From Pseudomonadota bacterium (GTDB lineage Bacteria; Pseudomonadota; Alphaproteobacteria; Micropepsales; Micropepsaceae): 64,000 nt of DNA. The stretch is taken from assembly GCA_016201105.1 (NCBI GenBank), contig JACQDN010000076.1:1-64000 (forward strand), in the 5' to 3' direction. Under the pieces are notes generated by a model. The model did no database searches. It had not been told where the DNA came from and saw only the letters and a program-made list of their open reading frames with translations. The position numbers were made by a program, and so were the translations under genes. The number at the start of each line of letters is the position of its first letter. The first letter of the stretch is position 1. Positions 17,530-56,698 of this stretch are shown piece after piece.

Positions 17530-17939
17530 GAGCGAGCCTTCAGGGAATCGCGAATTTCGCGCAAGAGCTTGATGTCTTCCGGCGGTTCGATCGCAGCCGA
17601 TTCCGGCGGCGGCGCCTTCAACCGATTGAGCGAGCGCACCACCAGAAAAAGCACGAATGCAATGATCAGAAAATTGATCACGGCATTGATGAAGAGGCCG
17701 TAGTTGATCGTCACGGCGCCGGCGGCTTTGGCTTTGACCAGCGTGTCGGCGTGGGATCCCTTGAGCACTGCGAAGAAGTTGGACAGATCGAGACCGCCCA
17801 TCAGCCAGCCGATCGGCGGCATGACGATGTCGTTCACCAGCGAATTCACGATCCCCGTAAACGACGCACCGATCACGACACCGACCGCGAGGTCGATGAC
17901 ACTGCCGCGCATCGCGAATGTCTTGAATTCACTGAACAT
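17526..17939 (-). CDS. mscL: Large-conductance mechanosensitive channel MscL
   Basis: 137 residues from ATG 17939; an in-frame TTG 27 nt upstream is possible, but [20 protein letters not shown] matches the family start. It forms a homopentameric channel that opens under membrane tension. TM1 is [22 protein letters not shown]2 is [20 protein letters not shown]; the cytoplasmic C-terminal helix is [13 protein letters not shown]. The periplasmic loop between them has normal length. Confidence 0.95.
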
Positions 17940-30315: not shown

Positions 30316-31055
30316 TCCTGTTTCCTGCCATCGATCTGAAGGACGGCGCCTGCGTGCGCTTGAAGCGCGGCGCGATGGAAGAGGCGACGATTTACAATCG
30401 TGATCCCGCCGCGCAAGCAAAGCTCTTTGCCGAGGCGGGCTTTCAATGGCTGCACTGCGTGGACCTGAACGGGGCCTTTGAAGGACGTTCGGCCAACGCG
30501 GATGCGATCCGCGCCATCCGGGCGGCGATCGATCTTCCCATCCAGTTGGGCGGAGGCATTCGCGATCGCGCGGCCATCGAAAGCTGGCTCGCCGCCGGCA
30601 TCGCAAGGGTGATCCTGGGGACGGCGGCCTTGCGCGATCCGGCCCTGGTGAAGGAAGCGGCGAAAGCCCATCCCGGCCGGATCGCCGTAGGGATCGATGC
30701 GCGCGGGGGCAAAGTGGCCGTCGAAGGCTGGGCCGAGACGTCGGACATGGAGGCGGCCGCGCTGGCGCGCCGCTTTGAAGACGCCGGCGTCGCGGCGATC
30801 GTTTTCACAGACATCAGCCGGGACGGAATGCTGCAAGGCGTGAATGTCGACGCGACCGCAACGTTATCGAACAGTGTTCAGATTCCGATTATTGCGTCCG
30901 GAGGCGTCGCCAACGAAGCGGATATCGAGAAACTCATCGCAGCCAAGGCCCCCAACATCTTGGGGGTCGTGATCGGTCGCGCTTTGTACGATGGTCGCAT
31001 CGATGCAAGAGCCGCGTTAAGGCTGGCTACAGCTGTGGAAAACTCTGTGGATTAA
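30312..31055 (+). CDS. hisA: ProFAR isomerase (phosphoribosylformimino-AICAR-P isomerase)
   Basis: 247 residues, a TIM barrel starting [16 protein letters not shown] (catalytic Asp in AIDLKDG), with IQLGGGIRD for phosphate binding, FTDISRDGM containing the second Asp, and IIASGGVA. It catalyses the fourth step of histidine synthesis. GTG start overlapping hisH. Its last codons overlap the end of parB (convergent, 4 bp) and contain two DnaA-box-like sequences. Confidence 0.95.
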
Positions 31056-31229
31056 AAGCTTTGCGAGGTGTTGCTCAGACGGCGGATTATTTCGTCTAAT
31101 TGTTCCAATGACTTATAGTTAATTCTGACCTCGCCGCCCTTTTCACCTTTATGTAAAATCTGAACTTTCAACCCGAGTTTATTGGAAACATTGGATTCTA
31201 ACGCGCGCGTATCCACATCTTTATCCACA
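31034..31229. other. Cluster of DnaA-box-like sites at the hisA/parB junction
   Basis: TTTTCCACA (minus, 31034-31042) and TTATCCACA (plus, 31221-31229) match TTWTNCACA exactly; TAATCCACA (minus, 31046-31054) and GTATCCACA (31209-31217) miss by one base. An AT-richer stretch (about 31080-31200) lies between. All sites lie in coding DNA, so amino-acid constraint may explain part of this. Confidence 0.35.
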
Positions 31230-31945
31230 CGCGGCTTTGCCTTGCCTGACTTCCTGCCAGAACGCTGTTCGGCCTCGCGGACGCTAAGTCCGGCCCTCAA
31301 TATCTCGTGGGCCGCCTTTTCCGGGTCTGACGAACCGATCAACGTTCGGGCATGACCGGCGGTGAGCTTTCCGGCACGGACAAACTCCTGCACCGTCTCG
31401 GGCAAAGTGAGCAGCCGAAGCGTATTGGCGATGTGGACGCGGCTCTTGCCGACTTCCTGGGCCACTCGCTCCTGGGTGTAGGAGAACCGGTTCATCAACT
31501 CACGGTACGCGGCCGCCTCTTCAATGGCGTTCAAGTCGGCGCGCTGGACGTTCTCGATAATGGCGAACTCCAGCGCTTCGCCATCCCCGATTTCGCGAAC
31601 CACCACCGGCACGTCGTGCAGCTTGGCAAGCTGGGCCGCCCGCCAGCGCCGCTCGCCGGCGACGATTTCGAACGCATTGGCCTCACCCGCCACCGGTCGC
31701 ACCAGGATCGGCTGCAGGACACCTTTCTCGCGGATGGAGTTGGCTAGGTCCTGAAGTTCTTCCGCCGCGAAATTCTTGCGTGGCTGAAAGCGGTTAGGTT
31801 TCAAGAAGGCGATCGGTACCAAGCGGGCGCCCTTGTTTTGGGCGTCAGCCGCTTTCACGGACGCCGCCGGCTCATCGCCGATCAGCGACGAAAGTCCGCG
31901 GCCCAAACCCCGCCTTGCATCGTCGTGCAGATTGCGCGTGTTCAT
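31052..31945 (-). CDS. parB: Chromosome partitioning protein ParB
   Basis: 297 residues. N-terminal [15 protein letters not shown] contacts ParA; the CTPase/box region holds [14 protein letters not shown] and [15 protein letters not shown]; the helix-turn-helix around [20 protein letters not shown] binds parS; the C-terminal dimer domain ends ISYKSLEQL-like ([16 protein letters not shown]). It loads on the two parS sites downstream of parA and spreads. parA lies 9 bp upstream. Confidence 0.97.
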
Positions 31946-31954
31946 AGGTTCTCC

Positions 31955-32785
31955 TTAGGCCGCCAGCCTCACGCGTTCACGCTGGATCAGCTCGCCGGCG
32001 AGTTTGATGTAGGCCTGACTGCCGGGGCACTTGAGGTCATAAACCAGCGCCGGCAGACCGTGGCTCGGCGCCTCGGATACCCTCACATTGCGGGGGATGA
32101 TCGTCTTGTAGACCTTGTCACCCATATGCCCGCGCACATCGGCTTCCACTTGCTCGGACAGCCGGTTGCGGCGGTCGAACATGGTCAGGACGATGCCCTG
32201 GATCTCGAGATCCGGGTTGAGGTTGCCCTTCACCAGGTCGATCGTTTTCAAGAGCTGGCTAAGCCCTTCCAGCGCAAAGAACTCGCATTGTAGCGGCACG
32301 ACGATGGCATGGGCCGCCGCCATGGCGTTGACTGTGAGCAGCGTCAGCGATGGCGGGCAATCGATCAACACATAGGAAAACCGCCCCGGATGCTCCTGTG
32401 CAAACTCGGCAAGCGAGTCCTTGAGGCGGAAATTGCGGCGTGGAATATCGATGAGCTCAAGCTCGGCACCCGAGAGGTCTACCGTTGAGGGCACCAGGGA
32501 AAGCCCCGGAATCTTGGTCGGCATCACGGCTTCGGCGATCTTGGCCGCGCCCACCACCACGTCATAGGTCGTAAGCTTCCGCTCCGCCCTGGGCACGCCC
32601 AGTCCGGTCGAGGCGTTGCCTTGTGGATCGATATCGACCACCAGGGTTGGCGCTCCCACGGCGGCCAAGGCCGTCCCAAGGTTGATGGCAGTGGTTGTCT
32701 TGCCCACGCCGCCTTTCTGATTGGCGACGACCAGGATTCGCGGGCCACTAGCCCGGGCGTTTGGTCTGTTTTGCGTGACCGACAT
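31955..32785 (-). CDS. parA: Chromosome partitioning ATPase ParA
   Basis: 276 residues from ATG 32785. Deviant Walker A VANQKGGVGKTTTAINLG, Walker A' DIDPQGNAS and Walker B VLIDCPPSLTLLTVNA. It moves ParB-parS complexes on the nucleoid. The start overlaps the end of rsmG by 38 bp, so parA, parB and the mnm/rsm genes form one leftward operon. Confidence 0.97.
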   Translation of the reverse strand: MSVTQNRPNARASGPRILVVANQKGGVGKTTTAINLGTALAAVGAPTLVVDIDPQGNASTGLGVPRAERKLTTYDVVVGAAKIAEAVMPTKIPGLSLVPSTVDLSGAELELIDIPRRNFRLKDSLAEFAQEHPGRFSYVLIDCPPSLTLLTVNAMAAAHAIVVPLQCEFFALEGLSQLLKTIDLVKGNLNPDLEIQGIVLTMFDRRNRLSEQVEADVRGHMGDKVYKTIIPRNVRVSEAPSHGLPALVYDLKCPGSQAYIKLAGELIQRERVRLAA

Positions 32786-33434
32786 GGCGCAGCTCCCGTA
32801 CATCCAGAATCGAGCCGGATGAATCCGTAAGGCTTGGGTGCCGTAGGGCTTTCATCCTCCAAGATTTACGGGCTTGGGTCAATTCAACCTCTACATTTTG
32901 TCCCTTGAGGAACAGGCAGATCGTATCCGGGCCCGAGAATAGCTGTGCATAGGAAAGCAGTTTGTCGAGCGGCGCGCAGGCCCTCGCGGTGACGATGTCG
33001 AAAGCCTTTGGTTTGGCCTGCTCCATTCGCTCATTGCGGACTTCGACCCTCGCCAGTACGCGCTGCGCCGCAGCCTTGAGAAACTCGGACTTTTTGCGGG
33101 TCGCTTCGAACAGCGTGACCGATAGTTCAGGGCGCAGCATGGCGAGCACAAGTCCTGGAAACCCTGCTCCACTGCCAAGATCAGCCACGGTCTTGGCGCC
33201 GGTGGGAATCAACGCCAGCAGCTGTGCGCTGTCCCAGACATGACGGCGCCAGACTTCGGCGAGCGACGACTTCGAGACGAGATTGTGTCTGGCGTTCCAC
33301 TCCTCAAGCAGCGCGACGAAAGCCTTTAGTCGCGCGAGTGTTTCACGTGAAACATCGGTCTCGCGCGCGAAGTCTTCCGGCCCGAAAGAGTTAGGAGGCA
33401 CGTCTGGATTCTCGCGCGGCTTTCGCGCGGACAT
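32748..33434 (-). CDS. rsmG: 16S rRNA (guanine-N7) methyltransferase RsmG (GidB)
   Basis: 228 residues. SAM motif [18 protein letters not shown], plus [20 protein letters not shown] (upstream helix) and [15 protein letters not shown]. It methylates 16S rRNA near the decoding site. The start ATG lies 44 bp inside the end of mnmG. A perfect parS site is embedded in its coding sequence at codons for DVSRETLA. Confidence 0.96.
33339..33354. promoter_or_regulatory. parS site 1 (inside rsmG)
   Basis: TGTTTCACGTGAAACA, a perfect match to the universal 16-bp ParB-binding site. It lies in the rsmG coding region and encodes the VSRET residues. It is about 14.3 kb from the proposed origin. Confidence 0.97.
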
Positions 33435-35301: not shown

Positions 35302-35317
35302 TGTTTCACGTGAAACA
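35302..35317. promoter_or_regulatory. parS site 2 (between mnmE and mnmG)
   Basis: A second perfect TGTTTCACGTGAAACA in the 56-bp gap between mnmE and mnmG. It is 1.96 kb from site 1; multiple clustered parS sites strengthen ParB spreading. Confidence 0.97.
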
Positions 35318-45597: not shown

Positions 45598-46625
45598 GAA
45601 GCATGCTCTCCAAAACCGCAGCGTTTGATCCCAGCCGGGCAGATCCGTCCCGTGCCGCAGGTGGCCGGCGAAGCCGAAAGCGCCCGCTCCACCAGTCCGG
45701 CCAGGCCTTCGATAAAGGCCGGATGGGTGCCGGCCGTCGCGGCCCGCAGATAGTCCGGAACCCCGGCTAGTTGCGAGAGCTTCGCATATTCAATGTCGAG
45801 TTCCACCAGCGTTTCGGAATGTTCTGAGACAAAAGCGATGGGTGCGACGACAAGGCCTTTGCCCTCAGCGCCCGCCCGGCGGATTTCGCCATCGGTCGCG
45901 GGCCCGATCCATTCCAGCGGTCCCACCCGGCTCTGATAGCAGACGACCCAGTCGAGATCTCTTATCCCCAGTCTGTCCACAACCGCTTGAGCCGTCTTTT
46001 CCACTTGCCATCGATAGGGATCGCCCTTCTGCACCGTGCGTTTGGGCAGCCCATGCGCAGATAACAACAGGCGATAGTCCACATCCGGCTTTCGCTTGCG
46101 CCACTCGGCTTCGATGTGACCGGCAACCGCGGTCACGAAACCGTCCTCCCACGGATAACAACAAACCTGGGCCGAGGCGGCGAACGCTTTTTCGCCCACC
46201 GCTTCACGCCAGGCGCCGAGCGAAGATGCCGATGTCGTCGTGGAATGCTGCGGGTAGAGCGGCAGCAGAACCGTGCGCTCCGGCGCGAAGTCTTCGACCG
46301 CGCGCGCGGTCTCGGCGCTGAACGGTTTGGCATAGCGCATGGCGATGAAAGCGCGTGCTTCGTATCCGCGGGTGGCCAGAACTTTCTCCAAAGCCCGCGC
46401 TTGGGCTTCAGTCTCTTCCAGGATGGGAGACCGGCCGCCGATCTTGGAATAGATCTCCCGTGCAATCGGGGTGCGGCGCGCGGCGATCAGGCGTGCGATC
46501 GGCAAACGTAAGAAACTTGGCAGCGCGATGATCGCAGGATCGGAAAACAGATTGCGCAGAAACGGTTCGACCTCCTCGAGCGCCGCGGGCCCTCCGAGGT
46601 TGAACAGTACGACGGCGAGCTTCAC
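45594..46625 (-). CDS. hemH: Ferrochelatase
   Basis: 343 residues from GTG 46625, overlapping the hemE stop (GTGA). It inserts iron into protoporphyrin. VVLFNLGGPAALEEVEPFLR is the family start; the catalytic histidine is in LLSAHGLPKRT and the glutamate in FVSEHSETLVELDIEY. The C-terminal tail has three cysteines (CGTGRICPAGIKRC), which recalls [2Fe-2S] ferrochelatases although the spacing is not the one I know best. Confidence 0.94.
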   Translation of the reverse strand: MKLAVVLFNLGGPAALEEVEPFLRNLFSDPAIIALPSFLRLPIARLIAARRTPIAREIYSKIGGRSPILEETEAQARALEKVLATRGYEARAFIAMRYAKPFSAETARAVEDFAPERTVLLPLYPQHSTTTSASSLGAWREAVGEKAFAASAQVCCYPWEDGFVTAVAGHIEAEWRKRKPDVDYRLLLSAHGLPKRTVQKGDPYRWQVEKTAQAVVDRLGIRDLDWVVCYQSRVGPLEWIGPATDGEIRRAGAEGKGLVVAPIAFVSEHSETLVELDIEYAKLSQLAGVPDYLRAATAGTHPAFIEGLAGLVERALSASPATCGTGRICPAGIKRCGFGEHAS

Positions 46626-47656
46626 GCAGAACTCCGCACGCACGCGATCAATTGCGCGACATGCTCCACAGGCGTCTCAGGCAATATGCCGTGGCCCAAA
46701 TTGAAAATAAACGGCACGCCTTCGAACGCATCCACAATCCTGTCCACAGCGGCCGCGAGCGCATCGCCGCCAGCGATCAACGCGATGGGATCGAGATTTC
46801 CCTGCACGGCCACACGCTTTCCCAATATCTTCGCAGCCCAGCGCGGCGGCACAGCGGTGTCGATCGAGACTGCATCCACACCGGTTTCGTTTGCATAGGC
46901 TTCGTAACCGGCAAGCGTGGTAGCTCGCGGAAAGCCAATGATTTTTGCGTCGGGCTTAACCGCGCGAACTTTTTCCACAATGCGTTTCGTCGGTGCAATG
47001 ACCCAGTCGGCAAATTCCCGCTCCGGCAATCCGGAAGCCCAACTGTCGAACAGCTGTACAGCGTCAGCGCCTGCGTCCAGCTGGCGAACGAGATGGAGCG
47101 CAACGCAGTCACCAAGAATGTCGAGAAGGCGCGCAAAGCCCTGAGGATCGTTGTAGCCCCACAATTTCGCGGCACGTTGATCGCTCGAGCCTTTGCCTTC
47201 TGCCATATAGGTCGCCAGCGTCCATGGCGCGCCGGCAAATCCGAGCAGCGCGGTCTGCGAATCCAACTCGGCGCGCACCATGCGAAGCGTTTCGTACGCC
47301 GGGGATAATCTACGCGCCCATTCTTTTTCATCACGCCGCAACGCATCTGTCGTCGTGATCGGCGTCAACGTCGGTCCGATGCTTTCCTCGAACACAACAT
47401 CGAGACCCAGCGCATAAGGAATCGTCAAAATATCGGAAAACAAAATCGCCGAGTCGAACCCGAACCGCTGGATCGGTTGCAGCGTGATCTCTTTCGCCAT
47501 CTCAGGCGACATGCACATGGTCCAGAACGAGCCAGCCTTCGCCCTGAGCGCCCGATACTCCGGTAGATAGCGCCCTGCTTGGCGCATCAACCAGATCGGG
47601 GGTGGCGTGACGTTCTTCTTTGAAAGAACGCTCAGCAGTTTCACATCTTCCTTCAA
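46622..47656 (-). CDS. hemE: Uroporphyrinogen decarboxylase
   Basis: 344 residues. PIWLMRQAGRYLPEYRALRA holds the catalytic arginines, FSDILTIPYALGLDVVFEES the aspartate, and GFAGAPWTLATYM another core block. It starts the branch to coproporphyrinogen. TTG 47656 has AGGAG 10 nt upstream; GTG 47644 is an alternative. First gene of the leftward hemE-hemH-hemJ unit and the left flank of the proposed origin. Confidence 0.96.
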   Translation of the reverse strand: MKEDVKLLSVLSKKNVTPPPIWLMRQAGRYLPEYRALRAKAGSFWTMCMSPEMAKEITLQPIQRFGFDSAILFSDILTIPYALGLDVVFEESIGPTLTPITTTDALRRDEKEWARRLSPAYETLRMVRAELDSQTALLGFAGAPWTLATYMAEGKGSSDQRAAKLWGYNDPQGFARLLDILGDCVALHLVRQLDAGADAVQLFDSWASGLPEREFADWVIAPTKRIVEKVRAVKPDAKIIGFPRATTLAGYEAYANETGVDAVSIDTAVPPRWAAKILGKRVAVQGNLDPIALIAGGDALAAAVDRIVDAFEGVPFIFNLGHGILPETPVEHVAQLIACVRSSA

Positions 47657-47909
47657 CGAAGAAGGACTCCTAAAGATGATGAGTAGTGTTGTTTGGTCTG
47701 TGAATTGGGGATGAACCGGTGAGTCCGCTTTCCTCTAGGCTCCAAGCGGTTGGGACTCAAGGGGAGTTTGATCGGTGCCGGTGTGTACGGAGGTTCACGT
47801 ATCATCGACTCCCATTAGCGGTCGTGCACTGTGAGAGCTCGGATGGGCAAGAGTCTCGCCCTGCTGTGCGGGAATTGGGTATGGTTGTGGGCTTTGCAAG
47901 GATGAATCT
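47657..47909. other. oriC: Candidate chromosome replication origin (hemE-ppsR gap)
   Basis: 253 bp between divergent hemE and ppsR (DUF299, RP001 homologue). In Caulobacter and Rickettsia the origin lies exactly between these two genes. The gap holds an imperfect hairpin, TGAGTCCGCTT / AAGC...GGGACTCA (47720-47730, 47744-47759), but no perfect DnaA box and no TTAA-N7-TTAA CtrA site. The call rests on gene order and on transcription diverging from here, not on motifs. Confidence 0.55.
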
Positions 47910-48740
47910 GTGAGCGGTCCTTTTCATCTCCATCTGATCTCCGACGCGACCGGAGAAACCTTGAACGCGATCGCCAAGGCGGCGGTGGCGCAGTTCGAAG
48001 GTGTGGAGGTGCGCGAACATTTTTATGCGCTGGTGAGAAGCCGGCGGCAGCTGGAGCGGGTGGTGGAGCATATCCGCGACGAGCCGGGGTTGGTGTTTTT
48101 CACCCTGGTCAATCCGGAGCTCCGCCGGGAGCTGGAAGCGCAATGCAGCCAGATGAAGGTGCCATGCCAAGGCGTGCTGGACGGACCGATCTCGATGATG
48201 GGAAAATTTCTGGGGTCGGCGGAAACCCATCGTCCCGGCGGCCAGCACGAAGTCGATCAGCGCTATCTCCAGCGCATCGAAGCCTTGAATTTTACGATCA
48301 CCCACGATGACGGCCAGAATCTGGACGGTATCAACGATGCCGAAGTGGTGCTGACGGGGGCCAGCCGCACCTCCAAAACACCGACTTGCGTCTATCTGGC
48401 GATCCGCGGCATCCGGGCCGCGAATGTTCCGATCGTGCCGAATATTCCTTTGCCCGCCCAACTTCTCTCGGCGACCAAGCCGTTGGTCGTCGGATTATGG
48501 GCGTCACCCGATCGTTTGATACAGGTACGCCGCAACCGCCTGCAGACCCTGGGCGAGGTGCGCGACACCTCCTACATCGATCTGGAAAATGTCCGCCACG
48601 AAGTGACCGCAACGCGCAAACTGTTCGACCAGCAAGGTTGGCCGGCGATCGATGTGTCGCGCCGTTCGGTGGAAGAAACGGCCGCCGCCGTGCTCAACCT
48701 TCTTGGCGACCGAAATTCCCGTCGCGGAGACGGCGCGTGA
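47910..48740 (+). CDS. ppsR: Bifunctional kinase/pyrophosphorylase regulating PEP synthase or PPDK (DUF299)
   Basis: 276 residues from GTG 47910 behind AAGGA. HLHLISDATGETLNAIAKAA start, P-loop-like LTGASRTSKTPTCVYLA, and DRLIQVRRNRL. It uses ADP to phosphorylate, and phosphate to restore, pyruvate-PEP enzymes. First of four coupled rightward genes (ppsR-maf-aroE-coaE), each overlapping the next by 4 bp. Confidence 0.94.
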   Translation: MSGPFHLHLISDATGETLNAIAKAAVAQFEGVEVREHFYALVRSRRQLERVVEHIRDEPGLVFFTLVNPELRRELEAQCSQMKVPCQGVLDGPISMMGKFLGSAETHRPGGQHEVDQRYLQRIEALNFTITHDDGQNLDGINDAEVVLTGASRTSKTPTCVYLAIRGIRAANVPIVPNIPLPAQLLSATKPLVVGLWASPDRLIQVRRNRLQTLGEVRDTSYIDLENVRHEVTATRKLFDQQGWPAIDVSRRSVEETAAAVLNLLGDRNSRRGDGA

Positions 48741-56026: not shown

Positions 56027-56698
56027 ATGTTCGCAAGCGTCGGCAAAGCGCTCGGCATTTTTTCCGACCGCGCCTTTCTGGGCGTCGTGCTCAAGGCGCT
56101 GGCGCTGACGGCGCTGCTGTTCGCCGTGCTGTTCGTTGGCCTTCGCTACGGGCTCGCGCATCTGCCGACGCTCGAGTGGCACTGGGTCAACGTGCTGCTG
56201 GATTGGTTCGCCCAGTTCGCTCTGCTGTTTTTGCTGTTCTTTCTGGGCGCACCGGTGGCGGCGATTTTCGCATCTCTGTTTCTGGACGAGATCGCGCAAG
56301 CCGTAGAGAGGAAGGACTATCCCGAGGATCCGCCGGCGCCGGGAACCCGCTTTTCAACCGCGCTCTATGTCGGTCTGCGTCTTGCCTTGTGGATCGTCCT
56401 GCTCAACATCCTGCTCTTGCCGGTCAACTTGTTTCCCGGAATCGGCACGGTCGTTTCCCTGCTGGTGAACGGCTGGCTCCTGGGCCGTGAATTTTTCGAG
56501 CTCGTCGCGATGCGCCACATGACGCTCGCCGAGGCCGACGCCATGCGGCGGCGCTACGGCGCGGGCGTGCTGTGGGCCGGCGTGCTTATCGCGATTTTAA
56601 CGCTCATTCCCTTCGTAAACCTCCTCGCGCCCCTTTTCGGCGCCGCTTTCATGGTGCATGTGTTCAAACGCTACGCGCATGAGGATCGCGCTCGATGA
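56027..56698 (+). CDS. EI24-domain membrane protein (CysZ-like)
   Basis: 223 residues, four to five membrane segments (LKALALTALLFAVLFVGLRY, WFAQFALLFLLFFLGAPVAA, LALWIVLLNILLLPVNLFPG, VLWAGVLIAILTLIPFVNLL). FLDEIAQAVERKDYP after TM2 and the NGWLLGREFFELVAMRHM block are characteristic. CysZ imports sulfate, but many EI24 proteins are uncharacterised. Overlaps the lipoprotein gene by 4 bp. Confidence 0.85.
   Translation: MFASVGKALGIFSDRAFLGVVLKALALTALLFAVLFVGLRYGLAHLPTLEWHWVNVLLDWFAQFALLFLLFFLGAPVAAIFASLFLDEIAQAVERKDYPEDPPAPGTRFSTALYVGLRLALWIVLLNILLLPVNLFPGIGTVVSLLVNGWLLGREFFELVAMRHMTLAEADAMRRRYGAGVLWAGVLIAILTLIPFVNLLAPLFGAAFMVHVFKRYAHEDRAR

Follow-up and report, generated by a model that had tools for sequence, protein, structure and literature searches.

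The 253-bp gap between hemE and ppsR (47657..47909) is very probably the chromosomal replication origin of this genome—that is, judging from sequence comparison, a Caulobacter-position origin of the weak-box type. Positions refer to the window, the whole stretch of 64,000 nucleotides analyzed here, which forms the start of a 79-kb contig in a draft genome of 84 contigs and 3.85 Mb. The evidence comprises the position of the gap, the conservation of an element within it, the single match of that element in the genome, its retention in relatives without hemE at this spot, parts that follow a similar order in other families, an enrichment of GANTC sites, and a terminus lying opposite in two congeners. 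The first-pass annotation had already placed the origin in this gap, and the conserved element, the DnaA boxes in the homologous gap of other families, the GANTC sites, and the dif/KOPS geometry described below all support that placement. The genus numbers at least 49 sequenced species, for which the gap is a candidate origin that standard predictors, namely the skew minimum and canonical DnaA boxes, could miss or assign to another place. Furthermore, its members form a natural series: boxes disappear, hemE moves away, and a single core element persists, which helps to narrow down the segment probably responsible for opening the DNA.

Genomic Setting of the Gap

The gap is flanked on the left by hemE (46622..47656, minus strand; Pfam URO-D, PF01208, E 3.6e-109) and on the right by the DUF299/COG1806 Kinase-PPPase gene, referred to here as ppsR (47910..48740, plus strand; Pfam Kinase-PPPase, PF03618, E 5.7e-89). 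These Pfam assignments agree with the earlier description of a gap between hemE and a DUF299 kinase gene, in a setting like that of Caulobacter and Rickettsia, from which the genes diverge; indeed, hemE is transcribed leftward and ppsR rightward, with the gene starts and ribosome sites at the gap judged by eye. Beyond the genes neighboring the gap, the coding strand shows no sharp switch. With respect to the features of a Cori-type origin, the gap is an intergenic region bounded by hemE and COG1806, and its AT content is above average, although only mildly so for the gap as a whole (54% GC, compared with approximately 60% in the window). The 35 bp to the left of the box-like element described below have a GC content of 40%, compared with the 54% of the gap and the approximately 60% of the window.

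The parAB genes and two perfect parS sites are located 12–17 kb to the left of the gap, much as the first-pass annotation had stated (12–16 kb). parB (31052..31945, minus strand) contains the Pfam domains ParB_N, HTH_ParB, and ParB_C, and the adjoining open reading frame, ParA-type by eye, is parA (31955..32803, minus strand); parA adjoins parB in all 31 regions compared. The parS sites lie at 33339..33354 and 35302..35317, both on the plus strand, and none of 100 shuffles gave two such sites with up to three mismatches allowed.

DnaA, CtrA, and IHF Sites

Within positions 47657–47909, no match to TTATCCACA was found at up to one mismatch, and no match to TTWTNCACA was found. The cluster of DnaA boxes or G-boxes that belongs to a Cori-type origin is likewise absent from the gap at up to one mismatch, TGATCCACA included, and the best DnaA-box match there, TCATCCCCA at 47706 on the minus strand, has two mismatches. 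The CtrA site TTAA-N7-TTAA does not occur in the gap at up to one mismatch; its only occurrence at this threshold in the 64 kb is at 56586, outside the gap. For IHF, the gap of the window contains one two-mismatch match only, and the three other congeners viewed have different ones. The gap had previously been described as lacking perfect DnaA boxes and CtrA sites, which holds even with one mismatch allowed, and the accompanying suggestion that control may differ from that in Caulobacter fits the absence of CtrA sites and strong DnaA boxes. Control by CtrA as in Caulobacter, through TTAA-N7-TTAA sites, is unlikely.

An alignment of 33 genus gaps revealed a weak DnaA-box-like pair at 47699..47714 (minus strand), consisting of TGTGAAT and TGGGGATGA; the latter reads TCATCCCCA on the minus strand and includes the W-box core TCCCCA. 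In most congeners, TGTGA-N-TTGTGGA or a similar sequence is found at the position of this pair in the alignment. The gap contains one W-box TCCCCA, in the form given in the available part of PMC4285127, and TGTGGA or a near form occupies the same spot in most congeners. DnaA boxes at up to one mismatch number only 5 in the gaps of 23 genus genomes. In the homologous gaps of eight other families, which are 318–890 bp long, 23 such boxes were found, distributed over seven of the eight gaps with none in the remaining one, and the highest 250-bp bin holds 13 boxes, compared with 0.35 expected per bin. Thus, strong DnaA boxes seem, from these counts, to have been lost from the gap in this genus.

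Several DnaA-box matches inside genes were set aside. Those in dnaQ near +3.1 kb, present in 16 of 23 genus genomes, correspond by eye to VIHN codons and were not counted, and a match at −98 in parB, corresponding by eye to I(L)HKG codons, was omitted from the count of TCCACA cores given below. The matches in hemH (20 in 23 genomes; for example, at 45962 in the window) sit at repeated residues, mainly LYPQ and VDYR codons, and are probably coding artefacts, 16 hemH matches being concentrated in two 250-bp bins in the genus genomes.

A Conserved Core in the Genus

The conserved core of the predicted origin is 101 bp long (47661..47761, plus strand). It was identified with a sequence-only model, R1, built from 32 congeners with the genome studied here excluded, which scores 63.7 bits in the window and has a single match in the 3.85-Mb genome at E up to 0.1, with an E-value of 3.2e-17. 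The R1 element is present in 48 of the 49 genus genomes searched, 16 of these 48 being absent from the model set; in the one exception (G041), ppsR was likewise not found. All 48 matches are on the ppsR strand and lie 106–214 bp upstream of ppsR, with a weak second match in two genomes and a weak match (E 1.1e-5) at the locus of G009. In 32 genomes from outside the genus, R1 gave no match at the ppsR gap, and its six weak matches there (E 0.009–0.07) are all located elsewhere than in that gap.

Of 23 genus genomes compared over regions of 26–40 kb, 6 have no hemE match within the region; hemH faces ppsR in these genomes, and the core nevertheless persists. The genomes without hemE between hemH and ppsR are G014, G022, G025, G028, G029, and G047 (L131, L113, L115, L117, L119, and L123, with their partner stretches).

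Order of Parts in Other Families

The loci compared from outside the genus are those of the closest ppsR relatives, comprising 27 loci from 99 genomes with a ppsR match. By eye, most of the eight other-family gaps carry, beside hemE, an AT-rich stretch, a G-rich triplet tract, TGTGGAT or a similar sequence, and then CGGGGAT. When 18 further families were searched with a profile of the eight, the gap was recovered in 5 of them at E up to 0.1.

Searches with nhmmer and the family profiles did not report the gap of the window, the best match in the window having an E-value of 2.9 and lying at 17682, outside the gap; for the genus, the score was reached by no more than 5 of 100 shuffles in 8 of 33 gaps, and most gaps went unreported. 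A block model derived from 18 non-genus cores, and built after both alignments had been seen, placed its best match on the plus strand in each of the 33 genus gaps; in 30 this match coincided with the core, and in 25 no more than 10 of 200 shuffles reached the score. Applied to the window by itself, this model gives no significant result: 13 of 200 shuffles reach its score, and higher scores occur at three positions of the 64 kb. As assessed by these models, the core of this species, taken singly, has weak homology to the cores of other families.

Triplet Tract

Between the weak box pair and hemE lies an AT-richer triplet tract (47672..47696, plus strand), which is DnaA-trio-like, with a putative function in opening, and reads GAT GAG TAG TAG AAA in the 3′→5′ direction from the boxes. 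The relaxed DnaA-trio pattern given in the available part of PMC8287927 consists of at least three triplets with a central A, and the window triplets 3′-GAT GAG TAG TAG AAA-5′ can be read as fitting that pattern as stated there. The period-3 run of A in the window tract is 5, and that of G is only 3. Period-3 G runs of at least 6 occur in 12 of 33 genus cores and 9 of 18 other-family cores, compared with 3–4% of shuffles, and A runs of at least 6 in 5 of 33 and 1 of 18, compared with about 1% of shuffles, the 18 other-family cores in both counts being a selected set (8 chosen by eye and 10 obtained via a profile of those 8). As for the spacer, 21 of the 33 genus gaps have G[GC]C ahead of TGTG, and 12 of the 18 other-family cores have SSSTG(T)G.

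GANTC Sites

The gap contains six GANTC sites, at 47665, 47721, 47754, 47807, 47851, and 47904 (spanning 47665..47908), and is the densest 250-bp GANTC stretch of the window. Against shuffles of the whole window this count is not extreme, at least six sites per 250 bp being reached in 85 of 100 shuffles. The enrichment emerges across the genus: in 23 genomes, the density is 11.4 sites per kb in the gaps, compared with 2.9 in other noncoding and 1.8 in coding sequence; 33 gaps contain 100 sites, where shuffling these gaps gives 32; and in 8 of the 23 genomes no 250-bp stretch of the compared region is denser in GANTC than the gap. In 26 non-genus gaps—those of the 27 loci with hemE adjacent, including four genomes shared with the eight-family set—77 sites were counted, compared with 15.1 expected from the mostly coding surroundings. 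In G028, no 250-bp stretch in the 400 kb sampled reaches the five GANTC sites of its gap; in G047, the three sites of the gap are equalled by 42 stretches in the 400 kb sampled.

The genome encodes GcrA and a CcrM-like methyltransferase with a RAMA domain and a DPPYN motif. According to the excerpts of PMC3973325 available, several GANTC motifs occur in the Caulobacter origin and in the origins of its relatives, and the presence of GANTC sites is therefore a trait already known there. Methylation was considered as a timer of origin re-use and was left out of the broader scenario given below: in the same excerpts, Caulobacter without CcrM shows normal replication control, CcrM not being required for the control of initiation, and the part played by CcrM is called indirect in the available text of PMC10073500.

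Terminus Geometry and GC Skew

Two congeners, G028 and G047, are assembled as single contigs, from which 29 and 32 stretches were sampled, respectively, some of them near the expected ends. The FtsK-orienting motif (KOPS), GGGNAGGG, points toward one site in each congener, with ratios of 44:5 and 45:5 within 500 kb and of 80:30 and 79:29 over all sampled stretches. At this convergence site lies the 17-mer TATAAGTAATATTATGG, which has the form of a dif site. It is one of 7–9 loose pattern matches per genome and the sole one that is identical in G028, G029, and G047; in the genome studied here, it occurs once at up to two mismatches, at C46:75935-75951 (L216), which is a probable dif site. The parB–ppsR block departs from the antipode of dif by 3.2% and 2.9% of the chromosome, or about 160 and 140 kb, in the two congeners. 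This geometry supports, coarsely, an origin in this neighborhood. In the 40 kb around the locus in G028 and G047, KOPS do not single it out: in G047, five point away and two towards in the left stretch, with three towards in the right stretch, and in G028, three and four point away and none towards.

In the sampled stretches of G047:C1 and G028:C1, each of the four arms shows a slight excess of C on the leading strand, with a GC skew of −0.010 to −0.015 per arm, nominal values that were used only beside KOPS and dif. GC skew was rejected as an origin locator, being weak and inverted in sign in these two congeners. With the skew inverted, its minimum would point towards the terminus, and the check proposed in the first-pass annotation, namely locating the skew minimum of the chromosome, would therefore mislead.

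Proposed Opening Mechanism

From the anatomy of the gap, DnaA, domain IV of which carries the usual GGRDHTTV motif in this genome, would bind the weak box pair at 47699–47714 and spread leftward over a 12-nt spacer onto the triplet tract at 47672–47696, and the duplex would open next to hemE. With such weak boxes, this step would hinge on the level or cooperativity of DnaA. A leftward promoter on the hemE side may transcribe across the triplet tract. The GANTC sites would be hemimethylated after passage of the fork, and a contribution of this state to the control of re-use is conceivable.

Alternative Readings

The conserved block might instead be only the promoter and 5′ leader of hemE or hemH, kept for gene regulation. 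Part of it can be read on the minus strand as a −35/−10 pair, a possible leftward hemE promoter (TTGAGT, 17 nt, TAGAGG; 47732..47760, by eye), in which the CAAG of ACTCAAG is invariant or nearly so among congeners, and the hemE ribosome site AGGAG, also on the minus strand, lies within the block. A promoter scan missed this pair and reported TTCACA-17-CATCAT at 47704-47676, inside the core, instead. The retention of the block where hemE is gone speaks against a purely regulatory role, although hemH could use the block there, as does the comparable arrangement in other families, where DnaA boxes accompany it. In the congener alignment, the hemE leader shows no consensus RNA fold and no pairs, its folding energies are like those of shuffles (mean z −0.27, n=33), and the only two Rfam matches, at E 2.7 and 4.2, are both far under their cut-offs. 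The best 40 columns of the core reach 1.35 bits, compared with 1.12 upstream of rho and 1.17 upstream of secB; values of 1.34 and 1.31 bits come from mnmE|yyaL and the parB end, which contain coding sequence and are therefore poor conservation controls. A block serving as promoter and leader alone is very improbable. The main rival to an origin in the gap is a cluster of four DnaA boxes in the parB 3′ end and the junction with hisA (31034..31229), which could be an accessory site or a rival origin, the hemE|ppsR element then being an ancestral or regulatory remnant. The cluster consists of two facing tandem pairs, with boxes 12 bp apart within each pair and an AT-rich stretch between the pairs; it is the densest DnaA-box stretch of the window, lies 16.6 kb from the gap and close to parS, and accounts for two of the three matches to the tandem-box pattern in the genome, the third (C47:73314) corresponding by eye to coding repeats in a hisF-like gene. 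Moreover, TCCACA cores are enriched in genus parB tails, with 20 in 10,150 bp compared with 13 in 95,986 bp elsewhere, a count that takes in the genome studied here and omits the coding-driven parB site. However, a core outside that site is found in the parB tail at only 10 of 29 genus loci (at least two cores at 6) and in 1 of 8 other families, whereas the gap element is found in 48 of 49 genus genomes, and the gaps carry cores more densely, at 3.6 per kb. The minus-strand genes parA, mnmEG, rho, and hemE would also meet a fork from the parB end head-on, an argument weakened by the orientation of the par–mnm block not being fixed, with inversions in G007 and G023. That replication starts at the parB end is a very unlikely reading of the sequence.

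Almost every genome of the genus has the gap element, which is not true of the cluster, and the cluster is therefore better read as an accessory site for DnaA—either a reservoir or a modulator of the datA/DARS type—serving a weak-box origin 16.6 kb away, which is compatible with an origin in the gap. datA and DARS are DnaA-modulating sites with a box arrangement and an IHF site. The accessory role, to which we give slightly less than an even chance, fits the placement of strong boxes outside the origin and weak ones at it, as well as the presence of the cluster in part of the genus; against it, part of the signal may reflect codon choice in parB. A broader scenario, in which Alphaproteobacteria share an opening element with a G-phased triplet tract after weak boxes, in place of a strict central-adenine DnaA-trio, the origin of this genus has shed strong boxes, and some lineages, including this one, meter DnaA via parB-3′-end boxes 16.6 kb off, is speculative and, as a whole, rather unlikely.

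Two further features of the par region were observed. An AT-rich spacer of the ATATTAA type and GAAC-N3-GTTC palindromes recur, by eye, around the parB stop in several congeners (L040, L041, L045, and L048). In G007 (L143) and G023 (L163-L164), the yyaL-mnmE-mnmG-rsmG-parA-parB block has the opposite orientation with respect to hemE-ppsR.

Comparison with Known Origins

The origin predicted in the hemE|ppsR gap resembles those of Caulobacter crescentus (Cori) and Rickettsia prowazekii in having the same flanking genes, hemE and COG1806, in divergent orientation, as described in the available parts of PMC1914354, PMC4468827, PMC4285127, and PMC3973325. Like Cori as reported in the passages available, the gap combines a stretch of higher AT content with weak DnaA sites and with GANTC sites. 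In contrast to these origins, there is no TTAA-N7-TTAA CtrA site, no G-box TGATCCACA, and no clear IHF site in the gap; the gap is only 253 bp long, and hemE is missing from the spot in some congeners. The predicted origin is thus of the Cori type by position, but in its parts it lacks the strong boxes and CtrA sites that belong to that type in the accessible text of PMC1914354, PMC4468827, and PMC4285127.

The basal unwinding system (BUS) of Bacillus subtilis and other bacteria, as presented in the available excerpts of PMC8287927 and PMC8235120, has a box pair, a GC-rich spacer, a 3-nt-periodic tract, and an AT-rich stretch, an order that the putative parts here resemble. The weak pair TGTGAAT/TGGGGAT would stand at the tandem-box position of the BUS, and the window has five central-A triplets. 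The boxes of the genus differ in being weak and about 7 bp apart, and phased G is found in more cores than phased central A; the triplet rule here seems, from the cores compared, to be looser than in the BUS. BUS predictions across bacteria, with the five proteobacterial classes included according to a figure legend, are already printed in PMC8287927, as far as its available text goes, and such an element in an alphaproteobacterium is therefore not new as an idea. A full-text literature search for DnaA-trio and Alphaproteobacteria surfaced, in the portions of text returned, only work on epsilonproteobacteria.

The closest parallel to the departure of hemE is found in Wolbachia, Ehrlichia, and Anaplasma, where rearrangement has separated hemE or COG1806 and, according to the part of PMC1914354 available, the origin has been kept though one flanking gene was replaced. 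In those genera, the gene that stays is hemE and the one that leaves is COG1806; here the roles are exchanged in 6 of the 23 genus genomes compared, in which COG1806 remains and hemE is gone from the spot.
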